Shown piece after piece: positions 2,479-42,809 of a stretch of 64,000 bases of DNA. The notes under the pieces are model-generated. The model saw only the letters and a list, made by a program, of their open reading frames with translations. It was not told where the DNA came from and did not search any database. This DNA is from Dyadobacter sp. Leaf189 (lineage in GTDB: Bacteria; Bacteroidota; Bacteroidia; Cytophagales; Spirosomataceae), in contig NZ_LMPS01000009.1 of assembly GCF_001424405.1 (NCBI RefSeq), positions 124,001 to 188,000 on the forward strand, written 5' to 3'. Position 1 is the first letter of the stretch. Every line of letters starts with the position of its first letter. Position numbers and translations under genes: made by a program.

Positions 2479-4470
2479 ATGATCAGTCCCGATATCTTGT
2501 TAGTAGAAGACGACGACATTGATGCGATGTACTTTATGCGTGCAATGCAGAAGTCTTTGCTGGATGTTGGCGAGGTCAGGATTTGTAAATATGCGGAAGA
2601 GGCGCTGCAGATGCTCGACGTATGGATTCCTTCCTGCATTTTTCTCGATTACCAGCTCCCAAAAACGAATGGACTGGAATTGCTGAAAAAGATTAAGCGC
2701 ATTGTTCCTAACCTGCCGGTTATTGTACTCACTTCGCAGGGCGATGAGCGTATTGCTGTCGAAATGATGAAGGCGGGCGCAATGGATTACTTTCCCAAGT
2801 CGGAAGTTACGCCGGAGAAGCTGACGAAGACGTTCCATACAATGGGGCAAATGCTCGAAGCCGGGAAAGGAAGAGAGCAGGCCAAGCAGGAACTGGCTGA
2901 AAAGGAGGAGTTTATCAACAAAATCGCATTACTCTCCCCTAATATCATTTATGTAATCGATATTGAAAAATGGACGAATATCTTCCAGAATAAGCAGATA
3001 TCGAAAATACTGGGCTACTCCGACGATGAGCTTCTGCCGGAAAGCAGCAATGCCCTTTCGCGGATTGTGAATGACCAGGACCAGCTTACATTCCGCCGGC
3101 ATTACCACTATATGCGGCACTGGGTGAAGGATTCGGATGTGGTGGAGAAAGAATTCAGGCTGCTGCACCGTGACGGATCGGAAGTTTGGATCATCACCAG
3201 GGAAGTACCTTTCAAGCGCAATGCAAACGGAACTGTGCAGGAAGTGCTGGGTACTGCTATTGATATTACCAGTCGCAAAAACGTTGAAAAGGAACTGATC
3301 AAGGCGAAACGCGACGCGGAAGAAGCGACGCGGATCAAATCTGATTTCCTCTCCACGATGAGCCACGAGATCCGTACGCCCATGAACGGGATTATCGGCT
3401 TCACCGACCTTTTAATGACGCGTGATTTTCCCGATGAAGACCGCGAGTATCTGCAGATGATCAAGTATTCGGCAGATAATTTAATGGTCATACTGAACGA
3501 CATACTCGATTTCTCTAAGATAGAAGCTGGCAAGTTTGGCCTGGAAAACTTCGATTTCGACCTGAGGGAGAAACTGAGCTACCTGATCAAAACCTTTGAA
3601 GTTAGAGCAAAAGAAAAGGCCATTGATCTGACTTATCAATTTGATGAAAACACGCCGACACTGCTCACAGGAGATGCTTACCGGTTGAATCAGATATTGG
3701 TCAACCTGGTGGGGAATGCGATCAAATTCACAGAAGAAGGCGGCTTTGTAAAAGTGATCGTATCGCTTCACAAAGATCTCGGAAGCAGCGTAGACCTGAA
3801 AATTGATGTAGTCGACTCGGGGATAGGTATCTCAGAAGACAAGCTGAGCGTCATTTTCGAAAGCTTTTCGCAGGCACATAAGAACAATGCGAAACACTAT
3901 TTCGGCGGTACCGGGCTTGGATTGAGCATCACGCGTAAGATTGCGGAGCTGATGAACGGAAGCATTACAGCCCAAAGCAAACTGGGCGAGGGCGCTACAT
4001 TCAGCGTGATACTTAATTTCGGCAAAGCAGAGAAAGACCTGAATGTAGTACAGGCTGATCCGGTTGAACATATCTCGCTCAAAGGTTACCGTATCCTCGC
4101 TGCCGAGGACATTATTGCCAATCAGATCCTGCTGAAACACCTTTTATCCAAGTGGGAAGCTGATTTTGTGATTTGCAACAATGGAAAAGAACTATTGGAA
4201 CACCTCGACCATGCAGAGTTTGACCTGATCCTGATGGACATTCAAATGCCGGTAATGGATGGTATAACAGCTATGAAAACAATCCAGGGATCGTATCCGC
4301 ACCTCATCAATGTCCCGGTGATTGCATTTACGGCAGATACTTTCGCTGAAAAGGAGCTGGAAGGTGTCAGGTTCAGCAGCTTTGTAACAAAACCGTTCAA
4401 AGCCGATGAACTGATCAGCGTGATCAGCCGCAGCCTGAAAGAACTACCCGCTCCCGTAGCCAGATACTAG
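2479..4470 (+). CDS. hybrid sensor kinase REC-PAS-HisKA-HATPase-REC
   Basis: A 663-residue soluble hybrid kinase. An N-terminal receiver (Asp57 in IFLDYQLP) is followed by a PAS/PAC segment (about 145-270), a HisKA helix with His296 in STMSHEIRTPMNG, a HATPase domain (N-box LVGNAIKFTE, G1 DSGIGIS, G2 GGTGLGLSITRKI) and a C-terminal receiver with Asp587 in ILMDIQMPVMDG. The double receiver layout suggests that it integrates an upstream phosphorelay signal, possibly from the kinase at 654-2006, with its own PAS input. It starts 27 bases after the receiver gene and is followed by a clear terminator, so it closes the signalling operon. No histidine phosphotransfer protein or DNA-binding output was seen in this window. 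Confidence 0.94.
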   Translation: MISPDILLVEDDDIDAMYFMRAMQKSLLDVGEVRICKYAEEALQMLDVWIPSCIFLDYQLPKTNGLELLKKIKRIVPNLPVIVLTSQGDERIAVEMMKAGAMDYFPKSEVTPEKLTKTFHTMGQMLEAGKGREQAKQELAEKEEFINKIALLSPNIIYVIDIEKWTNIFQNKQISKILGYSDDELLPESSNALSRIVNDQDQLTFRRHYHYMRHWVKDSDVVEKEFRLLHRDGSEVWIITREVPFKRNANGTVQEVLGTAIDITSRKNVEKELIKAKRDAEEATRIKSDFLSTMSHEIRTPMNGIIGFTDLLMTRDFPDEDREYLQMIKYSADNLMVILNDILDFSKIEAGKFGLENFDFDLREKLSYLIKTFEVRAKEKAIDLTYQFDENTPTLLTGDAYRLNQILVNLVGNAIKFTEEGGFVKVIVSLHKDLGSSVDLKIDVVDSGIGISEDKLSVIFESFSQAHKNNAKHYFGGTGLGLSITRKIAELMNGSITAQSKLGEGATFSVILNFGKAEKDLNVVQADPVEHISLKGYRILAAEDIIANQILLKHLLSKWEADFVICNNGKELLEHLDHAEFDLILMDIQMPVMDGITAMKTIQGSYPHLINVPVIAFTADTFAEKELEGVRFSSFVTKPFKADELISVISRSLKELPAPVARY

Positions 4471-4496
4471 TTGTTTGAACAATTTTGAAAGTATTA

Positions 4497-4524
4497 GCCT
4501 GCATTGAATGCGGGCTTTTTTTTT
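4497..4524 (+). terminator. Rho-independent terminator after the hybrid kinase
   Basis: A GC-rich hairpin (left arm GCCTGCATT, right arm AATGCGGGC with one G-T pair) is followed directly by a run of nine T. It lies 26 bases after the hybrid kinase stop and separates the signalling operon from the BlaI-M56 operon. Confidence 0.85.
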
Positions 4525-4539
4525 ACATAATTTCAAATA

Positions 4540-4573
4540 ACTAATAAAATAGTTTTGAAACTAAATGAATAGT
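4540..4573. promoter_or_regulatory. tandem BlaI/MecI-like operators
   Basis: Two 14-bp dyads of the form ACTA-N6-TAGT lie at 4540-4553 and 4560-4573, exactly 20 bp apart, about two helical turns. The half-sites match the outer bases of the staphylococcal mec/bla operator dyads (ACTA...TAGT). The first abuts the -33 box and the second fills the spacer between -33 and -7. A repressor bound here would block the promoter of the BlaI-type gene that starts at 4625, which fits autoregulation. The dyads are seen directly; the binding is inferred. Confidence 0.7.
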
Positions 4574-4583
4574 CTTAACTTTG
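4554..4583 (+). promoter_or_regulatory. Bacteroidota-type promoter of the BlaI-M56 operon
   Basis: A -33 box TTTG (4554-4557) and a -7 box TAACTTTG (4576-4583, matching TAnnTTTG) are separated by 18 bases. Transcription would start near 4590, about 35 bases before the ATG at 4625. It is embedded in the two operator-like dyads. Confidence 0.72.
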
Positions 4584-4624
4584 AGATAATACCAAGTTAA
4601 AATTTAATAATACAGCTCAAAATT

Positions 4625-4999
4625 ATGGAAGTACGCACATTGACACGCGCTGAGGAGGAGGTAATGAGGATTCTATGGCAACTTAAAAAGGCATTTGTAA
4701 AAGACATACTGGCCGAAATGCCTGAACCCAAACCTGCTTACAACACCGTTTCGACGATCATCCGGATCCTGGAAAAGAAAGAAGTTGTGGGCTACACAGC
4801 GTATGGAAAAACGCACGAATATTACCCGCTCATCAGCGAAGAGGAGTATAAGCGCCACGAGATGAAGCAATTGATGGTCAATTACTTTGATAACTCATTG
4901 CCTAACCTGGTTTCATTTTTCGTAAAGGACAATGATCTGAAAACGAAAGATCTGGACGAAATCATGAAGCTGATCAATCAGCACAAAAACGAACAATAA
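4625..4999 (+). CDS. BlaI/MecI/CopY family transcriptional repressor
   Basis: A 124-residue winged-helix repressor. The N-terminal third (LTRAEEEVMRILWQL, then PAYNTVSTIIRILEKK) is the BlaI/MecI DNA-binding domain with its recognition helix; the C-terminal helices mediate dimerisation. Family members bind TACA/ACTA-type dyads and are released when an M56-family membrane protease cleaves them. Two M56 proteases follow at 14 and 11 bases spacing, so this is the local repressor of a BlaI-BlaR1-like module. No beta-lactamase or penicillin-binding sensor domain is encoded here, so the signal is probably not a beta-lactam. Length is normal for the family. Confidence 0.95.
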   Translation: MEVRTLTRAEEEVMRILWQLKKAFVKDILAEMPEPKPAYNTVSTIIRILEKKEVVGYTAYGKTHEYYPLISEEEYKRHEMKQLMVNYFDNSLPNLVSFFVKDNDLKTKDLDEIMKLINQHKNEQ

Positions 5000-5013
5000 A
5001 AACCCTGTTAGCC

Positions 5014-6753
5014 ATGGAAATGCTATTGTATCTCGGCAAGGTGAACCTGTATTGGATCCTGCTTTTTGCCTGTTATCGTCTGATGCTCCGGCAGCACACT
5101 TTTTTTCAGCTGAACCGGTTTTATCTGCTTGGCTCCCTTGCCGTTGCATTTGCATTACCATTTGTAATCTACCCCGAAACCGCACCTGCGCTGCCGGTTA
5201 TTTACGAGGTGAATACAGCAGCAGTTTCCATTTCGGCTGTTCAGGAAGAGCAGCCGCTGATTACCTGGGTGCAGGTCGCGTGGATTTTGTATGCGATCGG
5301 GCTGCTCATTTCGGGTTATCTGCTTTTCAGGCATATACATCAGCTGCGGAGGTTTTTGATGGCAGGCGAAGTGATCGAGCTGGAAGATTGTACCGTCGTG
5401 ATGATCGACTCCAACCAGATCGGCTCATTTTCCTTTCTGAAATGGATCGTGATCAACAGAAACGATTATGAAAGCCATTTTGACGACATTCTTTGCCACG
5501 AAATGGTACACGCAAAGCAGTGGCACAGCGCCGATATACTCTTTGTGGAGATCATGAAAGTGTTCTTCTGGTTTAATCCCGTTCTCCTGCTTTACAAAAG
5601 AGATTTGCAGGAGGTACACGAATTCCTCGCCGACTCGAAAGCTTCAAACCGCGAAAATTACGCCCGCTTTCTGGTGAGTTATGCGTTGAATGCGCCCATT
5701 GCTTCATTGACAAACCATTTTTTCAAACCATCACAAATTAAATCCCGAATCCAGATGATCTACAAAAACCGGAGTCCGAAATGGCTGCTCAGCACTTACC
5801 TGTTTGCTGCCACAATGATAGGAGCCACTGCATTGCTGGTTGCTGGCTGCGAGAAGGAAGATTACAGCGAGCCTGAGGTAGCGAAAACAGAAGAGGAAAT
5901 ATTGCCTGCGAAGGTTTTTACGGTTGTTGAAACCCAGCCTGAATTCCCGGGAGGTACAGATGCAATGCATCGGTTTTTAGCGCAAAAGATCAAATATCCC
6001 ACTGCCGCTGTAAAGGCCAATGTACAGGGAAGGGTGTTCCTCTCATTTATAGTGACTGAAACAGGTAAGATACAGACCATTAATGTACTGAAAGGAATTG
6101 GTTACGGATGCGACGAGGAGGCAGTACGTGTTTTAAGGAGCTTTCCTGACTGGAAGCCCGGCGAGCAGAGCGGACAAAAGGTTAACGTTAAATATGTACT
6201 TCCCATTAATTTCCAGTTGGAAGAAGCAGATAACCAGGCTAAGCTGAACATACAAACTGGTGAAAAGGCGCCACTGTATGTTGTAGACGGCAAAGAACTT
6301 GAAAACGCTGATGATGCCAGAAAGCTGTCTCCAGACCAAATCGCCTCAGTGAATGTGCGGAAGGATTTCAAAACCACTTCCATTTATGGAAACAAAGGCA
6401 AGAATGGGGTCATTGAGATTACAACCAAACCAAATTCGACTGAAACGATCAAGACGGCCACTGTCACTGCATTCGTGCCGCTTGCCGGAGCTACCAACCA
6501 GCCTACTACAAAAGTGCAGCAATTAGACCCGGAGCCGCGTTCCGGAATACAGATCAGAGCCAATCCTAACCTGTCTGTTGCCAAGGTTCCTTTATACATT
6601 GTAGACGGTGTTAAGCTGGCAAATGGCGATGGCGTGAGCAAGATGGACCCGAATATGATAGAATCGATAAGTGTGCTCAAAGAGACGGGTGCCACTACGA
6701 TCTACGGAGAAGAAGGCAAAAATGGGGTAGTGCTGATCACAACAAAAAAATAG
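5014..6753 (+). CDS. M56 (BlaR1-type) membrane metallopeptidase with TonB C-terminal domain and two plug-like repeats
   Basis: A 579-residue inner-membrane protein. The N-terminal 120 residues contain three hydrophobic segments; the zinc site HEMVH is at 162-166, followed by the further conserved HEFLAD, as in BlaR1/MecR1 proteases; a last membrane segment lies near 260-275. Where BlaR1 carries a penicillin sensor, this protein has a periplasmic TonB_C domain (about 300-400, with PEFPGGTDAM and KYPTAAVKANVQG) and then two repeats resembling the TonB-receptor plug motif (LYVVDGKEL ... GKNGVIEITTK and LYIVDGVKL ... GKNGVVLITTK). Cleavage of the BlaI-type repressor encoded upstream is the expected output. 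The TonB and plug-like parts suggest that it senses or contacts outer-membrane transport complexes; that is inference. Confidence 0.9.
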   Translation: MEMLLYLGKVNLYWILLFACYRLMLRQHTFFQLNRFYLLGSLAVAFALPFVIYPETAPALPVIYEVNTAAVSISAVQEEQPLITWVQVAWILYAIGLLISGYLLFRHIHQLRRFLMAGEVIELEDCTVVMIDSNQIGSFSFLKWIVINRNDYESHFDDILCHEMVHAKQWHSADILFVEIMKVFFWFNPVLLLYKRDLQEVHEFLADSKASNRENYARFLVSYALNAPIASLTNHFFKPSQIKSRIQMIYKNRSPKWLLSTYLFAATMIGATALLVAGCEKEDYSEPEVAKTEEEILPAKVFTVVETQPEFPGGTDAMHRFLAQKIKYPTAAVKANVQGRVFLSFIVTETGKIQTINVLKGIGYGCDEEAVRVLRSFPDWKPGEQSGQKVNVKYVLPINFQLEEADNQAKLNIQTGEKAPLYVVDGKELENADDARKLSPDQIASVNVRKDFKTTSIYGNKGKNGVIEITTKPNSTETIKTATVTAFVPLAGATNQPTTKVQQLDPEPRSGIQIRANPNLSVAKVPLYIVDGVKLANGDGVSKMDPNMIESISVLKETGATTIYGEEGKNGVVLITTKK

Positions 6754-35359: not shown

Positions 35360-35446
35360 CTTATTTGACAACACGTTTGCCAGCTGCCTGATGGCACTAT
35401 TCACGGAATGGGATCGTTTTATAGAAAGCACAAAACGAACGAAGCC

Positions 35447-35746
35447 ATGAGAACAAACAGAGTCATGTTGTCGGTGATCGTAACGATTATTACAGCAATA
35501 AGCATTTCATCCTGTACCTACCGGGCCTCCTACAATCCTGGCTATGATTATGGTTACAGGCACGGGCATCGGTATTATTACCGCGCACCAGCTCCACCGC
35601 CACGTGTAGTGGTCGTGAAGCCGCACCGCCGGGTAATACATGCGGATCACTACAGACCAAGCCGACAAAATGATAAAGTATACAGACGTCAGTATAACCG
35701 GGGCAACCGATATGGTCATGGAAACAGGACCAGGGGACCAAGATGA
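35447..35746 (+). CDS. small basic lipoprotein, Tyr/Arg/His-rich
   Basis: A 99-residue lipoprotein; the ATG at 35447 (MRTNRVML) opens into a signal peptide with lipobox ISISSCTYR (Cys23). The mature part is extremely basic and aromatic: GYDYGYRHGHRYYYRAP, then PPRVVVVKPHRRV and RNGRNRYGHGNRTRG-like endings. No domain was recognised; similar small basic lipoproteins are common in the phylum and have unknown roles. The upstream frame to 35408 would add 13 residues before the signal peptide and is rejected. It lies between the DnaA-box region and the fatty acyl-AMP ligase cluster and ends in a hairpin terminator. Confidence 0.72.
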   Translation: MRTNRVMLSVIVTIITAISISSCTYRASYNPGYDYGYRHGHRYYYRAPAPPPRVVVVKPHRRVIHADHYRPSRQNDKVYRRQYNRGNRYGHGNRTRGPR

Positions 35747-35823: not shown

Positions 35824-37467
35824 ATGCATATACTCGATATACTGGAATCAAATGCTGAGTTGTATCCGGGCAAACTGGCTTACGGCTTTTTAGGCAAAGA
35901 CGGCGAATTGACCGAGCAGATACTTTACGCTGAGCTAAGTCAGCAGGTAAATGTCATTTCGGCCGGGCTCTCCGATCGATATCAGCCAGGCTCGCGCGTG
36001 CTGATTTTGCTGCCTGCGGAGGCAGCCTTTATCCGCTTCTTTCTTTCGTCTCTGAAAGCACAACTAGTTGCAGTACCTTGCCCGATTGGTTACTCCGAAT
36101 CGGGTATTCACCGGATCCTGAATATTATCCGCAATTGTGAAGCGGCAGCGATCATCACCAACAGAAAAACCTTTAAAATGCTTTTCCAAAGGCAAAATGA
36201 TGCCGTAAAATCGTTAAAGGATTGTTCTGTTGAGTGGCTGTTTACCGATGAAATGGCATTTGATACCGCGCCTGTCAGCAATGCGGTTCAGAAAATTGAT
36301 CCTCACCAAACGGCTTACCTGCAATATACCTCCGGCTCGACTAGCCTTCCTAAAGGAGTGATGATCAGTCACGCCAATCTGGTGGCTAACCTGAGTGCGA
36401 TCAACAACTGTTTTGGAAGAACTGCCGATGATGTTTCGTTGACCTGGCTGCCGCATTACCATGATATGGGCCTGGTAGACGGACTTTTATCTCCTTTGTA
36501 TACGGGCGGAACAGGGATTGTCATTTCTCCTCTTTTATTCATTACCAAACCGTTTTTGTTCCTTCAGGCTATCAGTAACTACCGTGCAGGATTTTGTGGA
36601 GGTCCCGGTTTCGGACTTGATCATTGTGTTGCCAGAATATCCGGCGAACAGCTCGAAACACTGGATCTGAGTTCTTTGCGCGTGCTATATGTAGGTGCGG
36701 AACCGATACGCATATCCAGCCTCGAAAGGTTTGCTGAAACCATGAAAGTCACCGGGTTCCGGCGCAACAGCCTGGTACCCGCCTATGGATTGGCCGAAGC
36801 TACACTGGCCGTGAGCTTACATTTGAATGGAACGCCGATGGTCTACCACAAAACAGCTGACCATTCCAAGGAGGTAGTCGCCTGCGGGCCGCCGGTGGAG
36901 TTTACCGAAGTTGCGATCGTTTCGCCAGAGACAAAGCAGGCATTACCACCGACCGAAACAGGTGAGATATGGGTCAAAAACGCTGGTGTGGCATTGGGAT
37001 ACTGGAAAAACCCGGAAGCTACGCAAGCTACTTTTCGGGCATATACCAGTGATGGCGACGGACCTTATCTGAGAACGGGGGATCTGGGCTTTATGGAAAA
37101 CGGGAAACTCTTTATTACCGGCCGCACCAAAGAGCTGATTATCATCCGCGGCGTGAATTACTATCCGCAGGATATTGAAGAGGTGGTCGCCGAAAGCCAC
37201 GTGGATGTTCAACCCAATGCAACTGCCGCCTTCTCAGTCAATACCGAAATTGGCGAATCGCTCGTGATTGTAGCAGAAGTAAGACGTATAGCACAGACAG
37301 ATGAAGATTTGGATCAGATCAGGAACAAGGTCGCGCACAGTGTCGGGCTTGCATTTGGATTGATTCCTCACAAAATTCTGCTGATCCCTCCGGGTAAGCT
37401 ACCGAAGACTTCCAGTGGGAAAATTCAGAGGCTGCATGCCAGGGAATTATTTGGTAGTTTTGACTAA
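35824..37467 (+). CDS. fatty acyl-AMP ligase (FAAL)-like adenylate-forming enzyme
   Basis: A 547-residue adenylating enzyme. The P-loop-like motif YTSGSTSLPKGV is at about 168-179, WLPHYHDMGLVDG follows, and the C-terminal half has YLRTGDLGFMENGKLFITGR with the FAAL-type IIRGVNYYPQDIE and a C-terminal Lys block PKTSSGKIQRLHA. FAALs activate free fatty acids as acyl-AMP and load them on a carrier protein without CoA. An acyl carrier protein is encoded 17 bases downstream, so it is the probable acceptor. It is the first gene of the FAAL-ACP-P450-MBOAT-SGNH cluster. No additional domain is fused. What acid it activates is unknown. Confidence 0.87.
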   Translation: MHILDILESNAELYPGKLAYGFLGKDGELTEQILYAELSQQVNVISAGLSDRYQPGSRVLILLPAEAAFIRFFLSSLKAQLVAVPCPIGYSESGIHRILNIIRNCEAAAIITNRKTFKMLFQRQNDAVKSLKDCSVEWLFTDEMAFDTAPVSNAVQKIDPHQTAYLQYTSGSTSLPKGVMISHANLVANLSAINNCFGRTADDVSLTWLPHYHDMGLVDGLLSPLYTGGTGIVISPLLFITKPFLFLQAISNYRAGFCGGPGFGLDHCVARISGEQLETLDLSSLRVLYVGAEPIRISSLERFAETMKVTGFRRNSLVPAYGLAEATLAVSLHLNGTPMVYHKTADHSKEVVACGPPVEFTEVAIVSPETKQALPPTETGEIWVKNAGVALGYWKNPEATQATFRAYTSDGDGPYLRTGDLGFMENGKLFITGRTKELIIIRGVNYYPQDIEEVVAESHVDVQPNATAAFSVNTEIGESLVIVAEVRRIAQTDEDLDQIRNKVAHSVGLAFGLIPHKILLIPPGKLPKTSSGKIQRLHARELFGSFD

Positions 37468-37484
37468 AACAATGAATTACTATA

Positions 37485-37733
37485 ATGAATAAAACATTTA
37501 CAGAAATCTCTGGTTGGATCGTTGAGAGCATTGCGCGCCATGCAGAAATGGATCCTACGCAGGTGCAGGTAGACGCGGACATCGTCAATTTCCGGCTGGA
37601 CTCCCTTATTTTGGTCAACATCACAGCCGACCTGGAAGAGTGGCTCGGCATGGAGCTAAGTCCATCCATATTCTGGGAAATGGGCACGATCGCAGCTACA
37701 ACCCACTGGATATTAGAGAATCAAGAAGTTTAG
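37485..37733 (+). CDS. acyl carrier protein
   Basis: An 82-residue carrier protein of the helix-bundle type. The phosphopantetheine serine is Ser40 in FRLDSLILVNI, in the usual middle position, and the acidic helix 2 (LDSLILVNITADLEEWL) is present. The flanks are typical: ISGWIVESIARHA and SPSIFWEMGTIAATTHWIL. It is not the acpP of fatty-acid synthesis, whose DSL motif is followed by a different helix, but a dedicated carrier for the ligase encoded 17 bases upstream. The P450 gene follows after 50 bases. Confidence 0.92.
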   Translation: MNKTFTEISGWIVESIARHAEMDPTQVQVDADIVNFRLDSLILVNITADLEEWLGMELSPSIFWEMGTIAATTHWILENQEV

Positions 37734-37783
37734 TCTATATTGCTGCCTCTTATCTACTTACAATCGTTCATAATCAGTAACCT

Positions 37784-38977
37784 ATGTCTGCAACGACTAT
37801 CTGGTCGTCACAAAACGAGATTAGCCAAAACTATTCTGAGCTGATCGGAAATATGCGACAATCCAATCCGGTTCATTTCAATATGTTCGGGGACCTGGTC
37901 GTCATGGATTACAAGAATGTCAAGCGGGTATTCTCAGACTCTGAAAATTTCAGGAATTTCGACTTTACCGAGCGATTCAAGATCGTGTCGGCTATTGCGA
38001 ACAATGATCCCGCCCTGCTGGAATTCGGAGAAAGCCTTCGATACTGGCTTTTGTTTATGAACGGCGACCGGCATGCTGAACACCGCCGTTTCGTAAATAA
38101 GAAGTTTTACGAGGCCGATTATGAGAAAATAACACACGACGCTATTCACGATGTACTGACCACGTACCGGGACAGGGAAGAAGCTGATCTGGTTGAAGTT
38201 GCACGAAAATTCAGCTTTCTGATTATCAGCAAGATCATCAATCTTGAAAGTTCTGATTACGATTTTATTCAGAAATTCTCCTATGTCATCACACTGATAT
38301 TTGAAAAAACGCTTTCTGTGAAAGATTTACTGGAATGTGCCAGTATGTCGAGACAGTTCAGCAGCTATCTCTCCCAAACACTCAGCCGCCAGGAAAAAGA
38401 CCTAACCCGCAGCCTTCTGGTGGAAATGAATGAGATAATGGGTACTTCCCGCATCCATGAACTGATTGGTACCTGGGAATTTCTGGTGAATGCAGCCACT
38501 GAAACCACCACCCTCCTGCTGACCAGAAGCATTGCCACATTAATCGACAACAAAGACAGGCCAATTAACTGGAATTCACACACCGAATGTGCAATAGCAG
38601 TAGAAGAACTGATCCGTTATGTAAGCCCTGTCAACTGGATTCCCAGGCAAATTCACCAATCCATGGAGTTTGAAGGTCTTGCATTGAAAAAGGGAAAAAC
38701 GGTGCTCGTCGGAATTGCCTCTGCCAATCGTGACCCTGCTGTTTTTCAGGATCCGGATACATTTATACCTGCCCGCAAACCCAATCCTCATATCGGCTTT
38801 GGCTTTGGCATACACCATTGCGTCGGCGCCAGACTCTCCCGATTTGAGATGCAAAAATTCCTTCCTGCATTTATGTCGGCCTTTCCGAATATCCGGCTAC
38901 ACCCTGAGAAACCCTGTGAATGGGATTCCAAAGTATTTTTCCGGGGGTACAAAAGTTTGCCGGTATTGTTAAGATAG
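37784..38977 (+). CDS. cytochrome P450
   Basis: A 397-residue soluble bacterial P450. The heme thiolate is Cys346 in FGFGIHHCVGARLSRFE, the I-helix has the oxygen-activating AATETTT, and the K-helix has the EELIRY (ExxR) motif. No membrane anchor is present. It lies directly behind an acyl carrier protein gene, an arrangement known from P450s that oxidise carrier-bound acyl chains (for example P450 BioI). I infer that it hydroxylates or cleaves the fatty acyl group while it is held on the carrier encoded upstream; whether it works on free acid cannot be excluded. Ferredoxin and reductase partners are not in the cluster. Confidence 0.95.
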   Translation: MSATTIWSSQNEISQNYSELIGNMRQSNPVHFNMFGDLVVMDYKNVKRVFSDSENFRNFDFTERFKIVSAIANNDPALLEFGESLRYWLLFMNGDRHAEHRRFVNKKFYEADYEKITHDAIHDVLTTYRDREEADLVEVARKFSFLIISKIINLESSDYDFIQKFSYVITLIFEKTLSVKDLLECASMSRQFSSYLSQTLSRQEKDLTRSLLVEMNEIMGTSRIHELIGTWEFLVNAATETTTLLLTRSIATLIDNKDRPINWNSHTECAIAVEELIRYVSPVNWIPRQIHQSMEFEGLALKKGKTVLVGIASANRDPAVFQDPDTFIPARKPNPHIGFGFGIHHCVGARLSRFEMQKFLPAFMSAFPNIRLHPEKPCEWDSKVFFRGYKSLPVLLR

Positions 38978-38984
38978 TGGCATA

Positions 38985-40394
38985 ATGATCAAGTTTACAG
39001 ACTTCTCATACTTCCTATTCCTGCTGCTGATCGTCCCTGCATATTACTGGACGCCCAACACCCGCAAATGGATCCTGCTGCTTGCATTGAGTATCCTTTT
39101 CAATATCAGCTGGAGTGGCTGGTATGTACTTGTCTGGATTGTACTTGTTACGATTTGCTACTTTTCGGGAAAATACCTGGCAAACCAGGCGCATTCCAAA
39201 CAGCGCCGAAAAACGGTTTTAACCTTTTCCGTGATCGTTTGCCTCTCGCCTTTGCTATTTTTCAAATACCTGATTCCCGTTAGTAATTCTTATTCTGCGG
39301 TTGCCCTCAACTGGCTTGCGCCTATTGGCATCTCCTACTACACTTTTCTGATCATCGGTTATTTGACTGATATTCAGAGGAGATACATCAAACCGGAGCA
39401 ACACTGGGGTTACCTCGCATTGTATCTGGGCTTTTTTCCGACGATACTGGCCGGCCCCCTGGAACGTGCGCGGCAATTGCTGCCGCAACTCCGAAATCCG
39501 GTCAGCTACCAGCCCGACAATATCAAAGCAGGTATTTACTTTATTGTCTGGGGTTTATTCAAGAAAATCGTACTGGCTGCGAGACTAGCTGAACTGACTG
39601 ATCCCGTTTTCGCGAAGCCTGAAAATTTCACCGGCTTCTCAGTAATGCTCGCCATTCTGTTGTTTTCAGTGCAGCTATACTGCGATTTTTCCGGCTATTG
39701 CGACATAGCAATGGGCTCTGCCAGGATGCTCGGGATTCGGCTAAGCAAGAATTTCGCCAATCGCTATTACTTCACCCCTTCCCGCACCGAATCCTGGAAT
39801 CTCTGGAACATCTCTGTGACATCCTGGTTTCGCGATTATGTCTTTTTTAATATCAGCAAAGGCGTTACTAACCCGGCAAGACTGGAATTAAACCGCCTGT
39901 TAACCTTTATTATCACCGGTTTGTGGCACGGGCCGAGCTGGTCATTTGTGATATGGGGTGCGCTGCAATGGGCTTACATTAACTTCGAGATGCGGACGAA
40001 ACATTTCTGGCAGAAGTTTTATTCAAAGCTTGGATTTCAGCTCGGCTCTTCGTCGCACAATGTCTGGCGCATCATTGTCAGGCTATTAACCGGCACGTTG
40101 ATCATGGGCTGGTTCCGCGCTGCGGAGCTAAGTGCCGGGTTGCGTTTGTACGGAAGCATGTTCGGGTTTTCTTCCGGTACCATGTCGCTGATAAGTCCTG
40201 CTTTCCTGCTTACCCTCAGTTTATTTCTGATTATGGATTATTTCAATTATCAGATGGGCGAGAAAGAAGACATCGCGTCGTACTTAATGAAAAGAACCAC
40301 TGCAAGACGAAGGGTTTCTCTGCTTTTACTTACCCAAATCATCCTAATATTTGGAAGACCCTACGTAGCCAATTTTTACTATATTCAATTCTGA
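38985..40394 (+). CDS. membrane-bound O-acyltransferase (MBOAT, AlgI/DltB type)
   Basis: A 469-residue polytopic protein with about ten transmembrane helices. The MBOAT catalytic His is His315 in ITGLWHGPSWSFVIWG, and the conserved acceptor Asp/Asn region is YCDFSGYCDIAMGSARMLG. Proteins of the AlgI/DltB branch carry an acyl group from an inner carrier across the membrane to an outer acceptor. The gene starts 7 bases after the P450 stop. With the carrier protein and ligase upstream and an SGNH protein downstream it reproduces the layout of the Dlt system, where DltB takes the acyl group from DltC. The acceptor is not known. Confidence 0.93.
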   Translation: MIKFTDFSYFLFLLLIVPAYYWTPNTRKWILLLALSILFNISWSGWYVLVWIVLVTICYFSGKYLANQAHSKQRRKTVLTFSVIVCLSPLLFFKYLIPVSNSYSAVALNWLAPIGISYYTFLIIGYLTDIQRRYIKPEQHWGYLALYLGFFPTILAGPLERARQLLPQLRNPVSYQPDNIKAGIYFIVWGLFKKIVLAARLAELTDPVFAKPENFTGFSVMLAILLFSVQLYCDFSGYCDIAMGSARMLGIRLSKNFANRYYFTPSRTESWNLWNISVTSWFRDYVFFNISKGVTNPARLELNRLLTFIITGLWHGPSWSFVIWGALQWAYINFEMRTKHFWQKFYSKLGFQLGSSSHNVWRIIVRLLTGTLIMGWFRAAELSAGLRLYGSMFGFSSGTMSLISPAFLLTLSLFLIMDYFNYQMGEKEDIASYLMKRTTARRRVSLLLLTQIILIFGRPYVANFYYIQF

Positions 40395-40431
40395 TTCGCA
40401 GTGCAAAACGTGATCAAAATATCGGGGCAAA

Positions 40432-41415
40432 ATGGTTAGTACAATTATCAAATGGCTGCTGGTAATTATTGGAATCAAACTCATTGTGGTTTTAATCACT
40501 ATTCCATTCACCCCCGATCCGAGAAGGGATCTCGCTGTCAGAGAAGAAATGTACCGCAAGTTCAATCCCAATGCCGTTTTCATTGGTACCAGCCGGACTC
40601 TGTATGCATTGGATTCCCGGTTATTTGACTCCCTGAACCGAAATGAAACGCGAACCTACAACATGGGTCTTTTCAACCTGCCTGCTTCCCAGGCGTTCAA
40701 TATCGCTGAGCGGATCATTGAAAGAGATACCGCTGTAAGAAACATCTTTATAGAGTTAAGTGCCCTGGATTACAACACCATACTTTTAAGTCCAACCCGT
40801 GTTCTCCCCGATTTTGTATTCAGGACAAAGGTTATGGCCGGCTGTTCCACTATCGAAGTTTCGGATAAAATAGAAAGCTTCCTGGCCGGGCTAAATACAT
40901 CGTTGTATCAAATGCTTTCGATTGCGCCCCAGATTGTTTTGGCAAAAAAAGCAATGCGTACCTCGTCAGATCCGATCGAAGGCACTCCATGGTTGCGGCC
41001 CGACGGTCACCAGCCCGTCAACCTGGGAGGTACTAACCAGACTGCATATATCCACAGAAGCAAAAAATCGACTGCGCAAATGATGGCGGCGAGGCAAACC
41101 AAAGAAGCCAATCAGTATTACATTGACCAGATTAACGGCCTCATTCTGAGCGCAAGCAAACGTAAAAAGAAGATCACGTTTTGCTTTCCTAATAACCTTT
41201 TGCATACCGAATTCCTCATTCTTTCGCAGGTAGCTCCCTATATTCCCGAGCATAACCTGATCCGTTTGCCCGCTGATTCGCGGTTTGAAGCACTTTTTGA
41301 TCCAGGTAATTCCTTTGACGCACATCATCTAAACCAGCAGGGAGCGAAAATATACACGCGATTTCTGCAAGAGGAATTTTCAAAGAGATCACACCCTTTG
41401 ACCGATAATATCTGA
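40432..41415 (+). CDS. membrane-anchored SGNH/DltD-like hydrolase-fold protein
   Basis: A 327-residue protein with one N-terminal transmembrane helix (about 5-25) and an outer domain. The nucleophile block is AVFIGTSRTLYALD (Ser54), and the C-terminal block is SFDAHHLNQQGAKIYTRFL with Asp296 and His299, so the Ser-Asp-His set of SGNH enzymes is kept. The relation to DltD and AlgX-type proteins is by placement and fold, and sequence identity should be low. It starts 37 bases after the MBOAT gene and overlaps the next gene by one base. It probably receives or transfers the acyl group on the periplasmic side. Confidence 0.82.
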   Translation: MVSTIIKWLLVIIGIKLIVVLITIPFTPDPRRDLAVREEMYRKFNPNAVFIGTSRTLYALDSRLFDSLNRNETRTYNMGLFNLPASQAFNIAERIIERDTAVRNIFIELSALDYNTILLSPTRVLPDFVFRTKVMAGCSTIEVSDKIESFLAGLNTSLYQMLSIAPQIVLAKKAMRTSSDPIEGTPWLRPDGHQPVNLGGTNQTAYIHRSKKSTAQMMAARQTKEANQYYIDQINGLILSASKRKKKITFCFPNNLLHTEFLILSQVAPYIPEHNLIRLPADSRFEALFDPGNSFDAHHLNQQGAKIYTRFLQEEFSKRSHPLTDNI

Positions 41416-42809
41416 TGCTTGTTTTCGCCATTCTTGCCTATCTGCTCGCGAACCTCGGCATTGGCCTCTGGGCTTCGCGGCGCATTTCTACCACGCAGGA
41501 CTTTGTACTGGCAGGCAGGCGGCTCCCGCTGGTCCTGGCGGCTTCCGCTACTTTTGCCACCTGGTTTGGCTCCGAAACAATCATGGGCGCGCCAAATGAA
41601 TTTGTGAAACACGGTTTGCTCGGCGTGATAGAAGACCCCTTTGGCGCAGCACTTTGCCTGTTGCTGGTCGGACTGTTCTTTGCCCGCAAATTCTATGAAA
41701 TGAACATTATCACGTTCTGTGATTTTTTTAAAATCCGCTACGGCCGGAAAGCTGAACTGTTGTCTGCTGTTTTGATCATTCCTTCCTATTTCAGCTGGAT
41801 TGCCGCGCAGTTGCTCGCAATGGGATTTGTGCTGAATGTAGTGCTGGGCTGGCCTCTCACCACCTGCATTATCGGCAGCTCTTTCGTCGTGATCGTTTAT
41901 ACGATCTGGGGCGGAATGTGGTCCGTGTCCATCACAGATTTCTTCCAAACGATCATGATCATATTCGGTCTGATCGCAGTCGCAGTGGTGCTTTATCAGG
42001 AAGTAGGCGGCTTTCGACCGCTGATCAATGCAGTTCCTGAGGACTTTTTCCGGTTTTATCCCCAGTTTACTTTCAAAGGTTACGTCGAGTACTTCGCTGC
42101 CTGGATCACGATCGGCCTGGGTTCTATTCCTCAGCAAGATGTATTTCAGAGGGTTATGTCCGCAAAAACAGCAAAAATTTCGGTGCAGGCTACATTGCTT
42201 TCCTCGTTTATGTACATCACAGTCGCATTAATCCCCCTGTTTATCGGCTTATGCGGCAACTATCTTTATCCCGGAGGCGATATAAATGATCAGCTGGTAA
42301 TCCCCAAAATGGTCATGAAACACATGGGACTTCCTTTGCAGATCGTGTTTTTTGGCGCATTGGTCTCAGCTATCCTGAGTACGACCAGCAGCGCGATCAT
42401 GGCGCCGGCAGTGGTGTTGGGAGAAAATATTTTCAAGTTTTTCAGACCGGAACTTACGGACAAGAAGCTCCTGAGGATTATCCGCGTGGGTATTGTCGTG
42501 ATCACTTCCATTTGCATTGTACTGGCAGTTACCCGCGAAAGTATCTTCGAGCTTGTGGCTGAATCTTCTGCTTTTAGCCTGGTTTGCCTGTTTGTTCCGC
42601 TGGCTGCGGGCGTATACTGGAAAGCCACCAACGAAATAGGTTGTCTGCTGGCAATGGTGGCAGGATTGATCGTCTGGATCGCCTGTGAGTTTGCGGGCAC
42701 CGAATATCCCGCGTTGATATACGGGTTGCTCGCCAGTTTGCTGGGAATGATCCTGGGTATAATCCTGGAAAGACTATACCCGGATCAGCTTCGCCTGCGT
42801 ACTAAATAA
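41415..42809 (+). CDS. sodium:solute symporter family protein
   Basis: A 464-residue transporter with about 13 transmembrane helices and the SSS family pattern: LGIGLWASRRISTTQDFVLAGR at the start, ATFATWFGSETIMGAPN in the second helix and WITIGLGSIPQQDVFQRVMSAK in the middle. It should carry a small organic solute with sodium; the solute is not evident. The ATG overlaps the stop of the SGNH gene (TGATG), so it is translationally coupled to the lipid cluster, which suggests that it has a role there, perhaps uptake of a precursor or choline-like acceptor. Convergent with the SDR gene, with 8 bases of overlap at the 3' ends. Confidence 0.92.
   Translation: MLVFAILAYLLANLGIGLWASRRISTTQDFVLAGRRLPLVLAASATFATWFGSETIMGAPNEFVKHGLLGVIEDPFGAALCLLLVGLFFARKFYEMNIITFCDFFKIRYGRKAELLSAVLIIPSYFSWIAAQLLAMGFVLNVVLGWPLTTCIIGSSFVVIVYTIWGGMWSVSITDFFQTIMIIFGLIAVAVVLYQEVGGFRPLINAVPEDFFRFYPQFTFKGYVEYFAAWITIGLGSIPQQDVFQRVMSAKTAKISVQATLLSSFMYITVALIPLFIGLCGNYLYPGGDINDQLVIPKMVMKHMGLPLQIVFFGALVSAILSTTSSAIMAPAVVLGENIFKFFRPELTDKKLLRIIRVGIVVITSICIVLAVTRESIFELVAESSAFSLVCLFVPLAAGVYWKATNEIGCLLAMVAGLIVWIACEFAGTEYPALIYGLLASLLGMILGIILERLYPDQLRLRTK

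Follow-up and report, generated by a model that had tools for sequence, protein, structure and literature searches.

A putative carrier-fed acyl-export cassette containing a cytochrome P450 in Dyadobacter sp. Leaf189

The window analysed here is a stretch of 64,000 nucleotides from the genome of Dyadobacter sp. Leaf189, and between its positions 35824 and 42809 it carries six open reading frames (ORFs) on the plus strand, each of which starts with ATG, ends with a stop codon and has no internal stop (Table 1). We found that the first five of these frames, which encode a ligase of the fatty acyl-AMP ligase (FAAL) type, an acyl carrier protein (ACP), a cytochrome P450, an MBOAT acyltransferase and an SGNH protein, constitute a genuine cassette. 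This arrangement goes beyond chance, since the gene order recurs across Dyadobacter loci and four of the genes (ACP-P450-MBOAT-SGNH, hereafter called the core) are found again in 13 genomes of other genera. We consider it probable that the cassette serves acyl export, being fed by the carrier, tailoring the chain with the P450 and delivering the acyl group to an extracytoplasmic acceptor. The parts of the cassette, their catalytic residues, their folds (as models), the conserved gene order and the co-occurrence of the genes are directly supported. A preliminary description of this DNA had listed the ORFs, their motifs, their close spacing and a one-base overlap at the end of the set, and all of these were present, as were the residues it had named (ACP Ser40, P450 Cys346, MBOAT His315, SGNH Ser54/Asp296/His299). 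The intergenic gaps within the five-gene set measure 7-50 bases.

We scanned 48 Dyadobacter genomes for FAAL (E ≤ 1e-60), P450 (E ≤ 1e-100) and orthologous MBOAT (at least 72% identity); genomes and loci are labelled G and L below, and G000 is the genome of the window. FAAL was found in 24 of the 48 genomes and the P450 in 22, and the same 22 genomes carry the orthologous MBOAT. All 22 P450-bearing genomes also have the FAAL, which adjoins the core in 14 of them and lies apart from it in eight. Among 13 loci of named genomes, all of Dyadobacter, the P450 is 75-92% identical to that of the window. Eight of these loci show the six-gene order that includes the downstream symporter gene, and the other five hold ACP-P450-MBOAT-SGNH in the same order at a different place. 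Together with the cores found outside the genus, these data bear out the expected conservation of the order among relatives. The eight split genomes keep FAAL-ACP at the old site and carry a second ACP with P450-MBOAT-SGNH elsewhere. Their displaced cores occupy six different places, one of which is shared by G202, G207 and G172 (with G202 and G207 entered twice); within 6 kb the flanks of the other five displaced cores show no common DNA at E ≤ 1e-20.

Mapping on an rpoB tree built for the 48 genomes requires 10 changes for the core and 10 for the FAAL. Both change in the same direction in 5.7 of six well-supported independent contrasts on average and never in opposite directions (sign test, median p 0.031, range 0.031-0.0625). 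We rate this co-occurrence as moderate evidence, because the tree was built from one gene, 23 of its 45 inner branches are well supported and ten rows have an odd base make-up. The clade with the split loci comprises 13 genomes, eight of which have both FAAL and core, four neither, one the FAAL only and none the core only. The ACPs that adjoin the FAAL in split and FAAL-only genomes form a clade of their own (nine of ten rows, support 100/99), with G181 standing apart, and the ACPs of the displaced cores form another one (93/92) near the linked ACPs of G163, G169 and G096. Within the eight split genomes, P450 distances barely track rpoB distances (r 0.09) while FAAL distances do (r 0.63; 28 non-independent pairs), which suggests that cores may have moved between lineages; across all 22 genomes P450 distances do follow rpoB (0.82).

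Outside the genus, we used the P450 or P450 alignments as query in overlapping samples of 200 genomes of the family (84 with any P450 match; full-length matches of at least 72% identity in 19, all Dyadobacter), 390 of the order (51 matches at E ≤ 1e-20), 395 of the phylum (14 at E ≤ 1e-45) and 395 of the class (seven at E ≤ 1e-60). We inspected the neighbourhoods of 24 of the 37 order matches outside the genus, of five phylum matches and of all six class matches other than G000. It can be seen that ACP-P450-MBOAT-SGNH occurs in 13 genomes of seven other genera and four families: eight in the same family (G054, G016, G062, G012, G041, G070, G090, G081), two in the same order (G308, G257) and three in the same class (G1012, G1064, G1081). 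Twelve of these clusters keep the order and strand of the window; in G1081 the SGNH gene stands beside the MBOAT gene in convergent orientation. The P450s of four core rows outside the genus are 24-28% identical to that of the window, and in the Aquirufa-type genomes (g13) the SGNH protein was assigned by its position and its aligned Ser/His. The FAAL adjoins the core in three of the 13 genomes (G054, G016, G1081). Visual comparison of the clusters showed no additional gene conserved next to the core.

ACP and P450 are adjacent in every core found, and they also stand together in loci without FAAL or without MBOAT. Partial forms lacking the MBOAT are FAAL-ACP-P450 in G082 and G058 and ACP-P450 in G448 and G434. 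The former two genomes are Larkinella-like and their loci (L049, L051) also lack the SGNH gene; L049 adjoins an ABC exporter gene whose matches are of the HlyB/MsbA type, and L051 has a similar ORF. The latter two belong to another family and carry the bare pair (L132, L133). No core was present around the P450s read at L134, L138-L149, L223-L228, L280, L281, L052 and L053, where the L134 contig ends 0.5 kb after the P450 and L145 has an MBOAT gene 3.5 kb away; likewise, the phylum scan yielded no core in the six places read, which came from five genomes. L280 (G1084) is another biosynthetic locus: it encodes a FAAL-ACP fusion of 700 aa (4361-6460) and, on the opposite strand, a P450 (7220-8416), and it contains no MBOAT or SGNH match. 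When ACPs of this type were searched for, 37 of 380 genomes gave matches at E ≤ 1e-7, and many weaker matches fell in large ORFs. By eye, G229 holds the single stand-alone ACP match at E ≤ 1e-17 that falls outside the known clusters; this ACP adjoins an acyl-CoA-dehydrogenase-like ORF and an ORF resembling a non-ribosomal peptide synthetase (NRPS).

When the ligase was compared with PDB entries, FAAL-type entries scored 162-358 bits (7r7f 358; 3kxw, deposited as Saframycin Mx1 synthetase B, 308; FadD23 8hd4 248), and the first clear CoA ligase, a 4-coumarate--CoA ligase, reached 108 bits. Several of the entries counted here as FAAL are deposited as acyl-CoA synthase, and we presume their FAAL status. 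The NCBIfam comparison was less clean: FAAL models scored 246-364 bits (best 364, 358 and 306), one NRPS/polyketide synthase (PKS) model scored 414, models named CoA ligase scored 292 (PRK07768) and 183 (PRK06187), and no NCBIfam model was above its cut-off. By its PDB scores the ligase belongs with the FAALs rather than the CoA ligases, as had been proposed. The profile of the carrier matched 4hkg, 2n98, 2afd and the Pks13 ACP, and its Ser40 is invariant in a 12-row alignment with relatives.

The best solved relatives of the P450 in the PDB are PksS (4yzr, 120 bits), 4rm4 (109) and BioI (3ejb, 109). BioI works on acyl-ACP, and the comparison with this enzyme drawn in the preliminary description holds in so far as BioI is among the nearest solved relatives. 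All 11 rows of a diverse alignment share Cys346, E275-R278 and E240-T241. From its Cys ligand, its ExxR motif and the acid-Thr pair of helix I, the protein is predicted to be a competent monooxygenase. In the P450 tree, proteins from cores without FAAL fall in one clade with Aquimarina and Mucilaginibacter proteins, which were taken from the best 120 of 299 relatives, and those from cores with FAAL do not form one clade; several branches are long.

The MBOAT combines a DltB-like fold with two further helices and a C-terminal shuttle motif, FXYXXF. Its score against the DltB equivalog TIGR04091 is 135.7 bits, which is below the cut-off of 375, and the fold is alike. His315 as well as the Tyr and the last Phe of the motif are invariant in 13 diverse rows, and the whole motif is present in all 24 Dyadobacter MBOAT rows (22 genomes). 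Two other MBOATs of G000 also end in FIYFQF, one of them being followed by an ORF of 373 aa that may be its partner, and no ACP, FAAL or P450 match was found in 8.5-9 kb around these two genes. Therefore, the tail is a class feature, and it is the carrier and the P450 that are special here.

In the SGNH protein, Ser54 and His299 are invariant and Asp296 is kept in at least 90% of the rows (alignments of 10 and 25 rows). Structure comparison of the model revealed resemblance to PatB and also to esterases, and a profile search against PDB sequences gave no significant match (best E 0.17, PatB 0.32). The MBOAT His, the C-terminal FXYXXF on two extra helices and the Ser/Asp/His of the SGNH protein are all in place, which supports the conclusion that the two proteins have the anatomy of an acyl-export pair. 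The SGNH protein is the fastest-evolving part of the cassette, with a median identity of 52% over 231 genome pairs (FAAL 69%, P450 77%, MBOAT 75.5%). Compared with L003 it is 49% identical, the other cassette proteins being 83-92% identical. This divergence, noted across 40432-41415 and in L003-L015, L054-L060 and L099, would fit a varying surface acceptor.

On this basis, a working mechanism can be formulated in which we infer each reaction step, the feeding of the MBOAT by the carrier, the substrate of the P450, the product and the acceptor. The FAAL would convert a fatty acid to acyl-AMP and load it onto the holo-ACP, and the P450 would oxidise the acyl chain while it is bound to the carrier. 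At His315 the MBOAT would then receive the carrier-bound acyl group and relay it to Tyr466 in its C-terminal FXYXXF tail. Ser54 of the SGNH protein, which is anchored in the membrane, would take it over, and from there it may reach an extracytoplasmic acceptor as an ester. A wider proposal, to which we assign an even chance, is that this is a third feeding mode of MBOAT-SGNH export, in which a dedicated carrier presents a P450-oxidised chain to a self-shuttling MBOAT and an oxygenated fatty acyl group ends up on a molecule of the cell surface; it would exist in two subtypes, one FAAL-fed with FXYXXF and one FAAL-free with [N/A]YYXXF.

Several observations weigh against acyl export by a FAAL-fed carrier. 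Three related cluster FAALs (L045, L049, L050) contain 13-15 residues that neither the window ligase nor the CoA ligase of L130 has, and we assume that this stretch may be the FAAL-specific insertion. A region of the ligase that we take to be the CoA-rejecting helix aligns without gaps to 7r7f. PMC8460268 reports that CoA use recovers further when the FAAL-specific helix is deleted than when the insertion is. The window ligase is therefore likely to be a FAAL, short of proof. The first Phe of the shuttle motif is Asn or Ala in eight of ten non-Dyadobacter MBOAT rows, and DltD was not among the 50 matches listed for the SGNH model. In the split genomes the second ACP beside the FAAL leaves two candidate ACPs for loading, and G175 and G181 keep FAAL-ACP without the core. 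Finally, eight genomes with the core (five Aquirufa-type, G062 and both g70) have no FAAL homologue at E ≤ 1e-30; this search covered eight of the ten core genomes without an adjoining FAAL, the contigs of the other two (G1012, G1064) ending 0.8-0.9 kb upstream of the ACP. We therefore rejected the FAAL as an obligatory member, and the preliminary description is not supported on this point. In these eight genomes the ACP must be loaded by another route, perhaps by a CoA ligase encoded after the core in L130 (a similar ORF is present in L131) or by fatty acid synthesis. In G160 (L057) the cassette is whole apart from the FAAL, which lies in two frames with a break at about residue 385; this may be decay or an assembly error, and it also counts on this side.

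Four alternative explanations were weighed. The export path could be as proposed and the P450 could have a different substrate, either the unbound fatty acid or the acceptor, before or after the latter is acylated. The similarity to BioI and PksS is modest, many further P450s score close behind them, and ACP-linked and unlinked P450s are separated in the tree at weak support (71/55), all of which leaves room for this explanation; since ACP-P450 is the tightest pair of all, also in loci without MBOAT, we regard it as rather unlikely. A second possibility is that the cassette yields a small acylated natural product that is secreted, the MBOAT-SGNH pair acylating this molecule in place of an envelope polymer. 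PKS carriers among the solved ACP relatives, the patchy, site-hopping distribution and the fast-evolving SGNH protein are consistent with such a product, but the core retains no extra neighbour and the SGNH model is similar to PatB and not to esterases alone, and we judge this explanation improbable.

Thirdly, MBOAT-SGNH might be an ordinary CoA-fed pair that a separate FAAL-ACP-P450 pathway merely adjoins. The MBOAT does have the tail of CoA-fed MBOATs, as described in PMC12148441, and G082 and G058 carry FAAL-ACP-P450 without MBOAT. However, 10 of the 13 non-Dyadobacter clusters keep the four core genes together with no FAAL next to them, and in the eight split genomes the core sits as one block at each of its six places, so that we hold such independence to be very doubtful. 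A biotin route, with the P450 as a BioI that cleaves acyl-ACP to pimeloyl-ACP, was rejected as highly unlikely in spite of the BioI match, since 26 of the 48 Dyadobacter genomes lack the P450 and the MBOAT and SGNH proteins would have no role in it.

The sodium:solute symporter, which had been described as coupled to the set, was rejected as a member of the cassette. Thirteen sites were read among the 24 Dyadobacter genomes without FAAL and core; none of them contained FAAL, P450, MBOAT or SGNH genes, and the symporter was near the site in 11. It was missing at the site in G211 and G104 and lay some kilobases off in G125 and G145. In nine of the ten split or FAAL-only loci the symporter follows the ACP. 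Thus, it is a resident neighbour of the insertion site. In the window, one base is common to the SGNH stop and the symporter start (TGATG). This overlap is not general: the match ends are 13-37 bases apart in eight linked loci, and they overlap by 10 in G163 (L060). In G210 (L233, 9846-9926), one of the four genomes of the split-locus clade that have neither FAAL nor core, a remnant of the ACP (residues 56-82) precedes the symporter. When the window was compared with L229 and L003, its left flank was nearer to G157 up to about 35.3 kb, upstream of a small ORF (35408-35746), and nearer to G032 beyond that point, and from the symporter start (41415 onward) the right flank was nearer to G157 again. 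Since the flanks switch ancestry at these two points, it appears that the cassette of the window came by recombination from a G032-like lineage or that the near relative G157 lost it.

Table 1. Reading frames of the cassette and of its downstream neighbour (positions in the window)
Product	Position	Strand	Features
FAAL-type acyl-AMP ligase, 547 aa	35824..37467	+	Pfam AMP-binding, E 2.2e-69; predicted to activate a fatty acid and load the carrier
Acyl carrier protein (ACP), 82 aa	37485..37733	+	Pfam PP-binding, 1.3e-10; phosphopantetheine Ser40 in RLDSL
Cytochrome P450, 397 aa	37784..38977	+	Pfam p450, 2.9e-23; heme ligand Cys346, E275-R278 (ExxR), E240-T241 of helix I
MBOAT acyltransferase, 469 aa	38985..40394	+	Pfam MBOAT, 2.7e-22; His315, two C-terminal helices, terminal FYYIQF with Tyr466
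SGNH/DltD-like protein, 327 aa	40432..41415	+	One N-terminal helix; Ser54, Asp296, His299; no Pfam match
Sodium:solute symporter, 464 aa	41415..42809	+	Pfam SSF; neighbour, outside the cassette

Among known systems, FAAL-ACP pairs such as FadD32-Pks13, in which the ligase loads the carrier, likewise combine a FAAL-like ligase with a Pks13-like ACP, but the cluster described here is free of polyketide or peptide synthetases and its product would go to the MBOAT-SGNH pair. Compared with BioI and PksS, which the P450 resembles modestly, the cassette has MBOAT and SGNH as conserved partners. In the Dlt system of teichoic acid D-alanylation (DltA-DltC-DltX-DltB-DltD), DltA takes the place of the fatty-acid-type ligase; the cassette adds a P450, and its FAAL is dispensable in sister clusters. 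The assignment of Dlt roles to ligase, carrier, MBOAT and SGNH protein stood as far as their identities are concerned, whereas the plain analogy did not, because the MBOAT has two helices beyond the DltB fold and its own C-terminal Tyr motif, so that the shuttle Tyr is not on DltX. The gaps of the five-gene set leave no room for a gene of a DltX-like microprotein, for which the rest of the genome was not searched. In PMC12148441, the Dlt system is described as carrier-fed with the motif on DltX, and CoA-fed, carrier-free MBOAT-SGNH pairs as having the FXYXXF shuttle on the MBOAT tail. PatA-PatB and other such pairs (alginate, cellulose) likewise have two extra C-terminal helices, FXYXXF and an SGNH partner, and are described there as acting on acyl-CoA without a carrier; in contrast, the cassette has an ACP and a P450 as fixed neighbours.

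Thus, the cassette looks like a hybrid, carrier-fed as Dlt and self-shuttling as PatA, with P450 tailoring. In the openly licensed PMC literature, which was searched in part, we found no description of the combination FAAL-ACP-P450-MBOAT-SGNH. Since the cassette joins the carrier of Dlt, the tail of CoA-fed MBOATs and an oxidising enzyme, the question of what determines the donor can be addressed with it directly. If the proposed function is true, it identifies the genes by which Dyadobacter and other Bacteroidota would carry out an oxygenated acyl modification.

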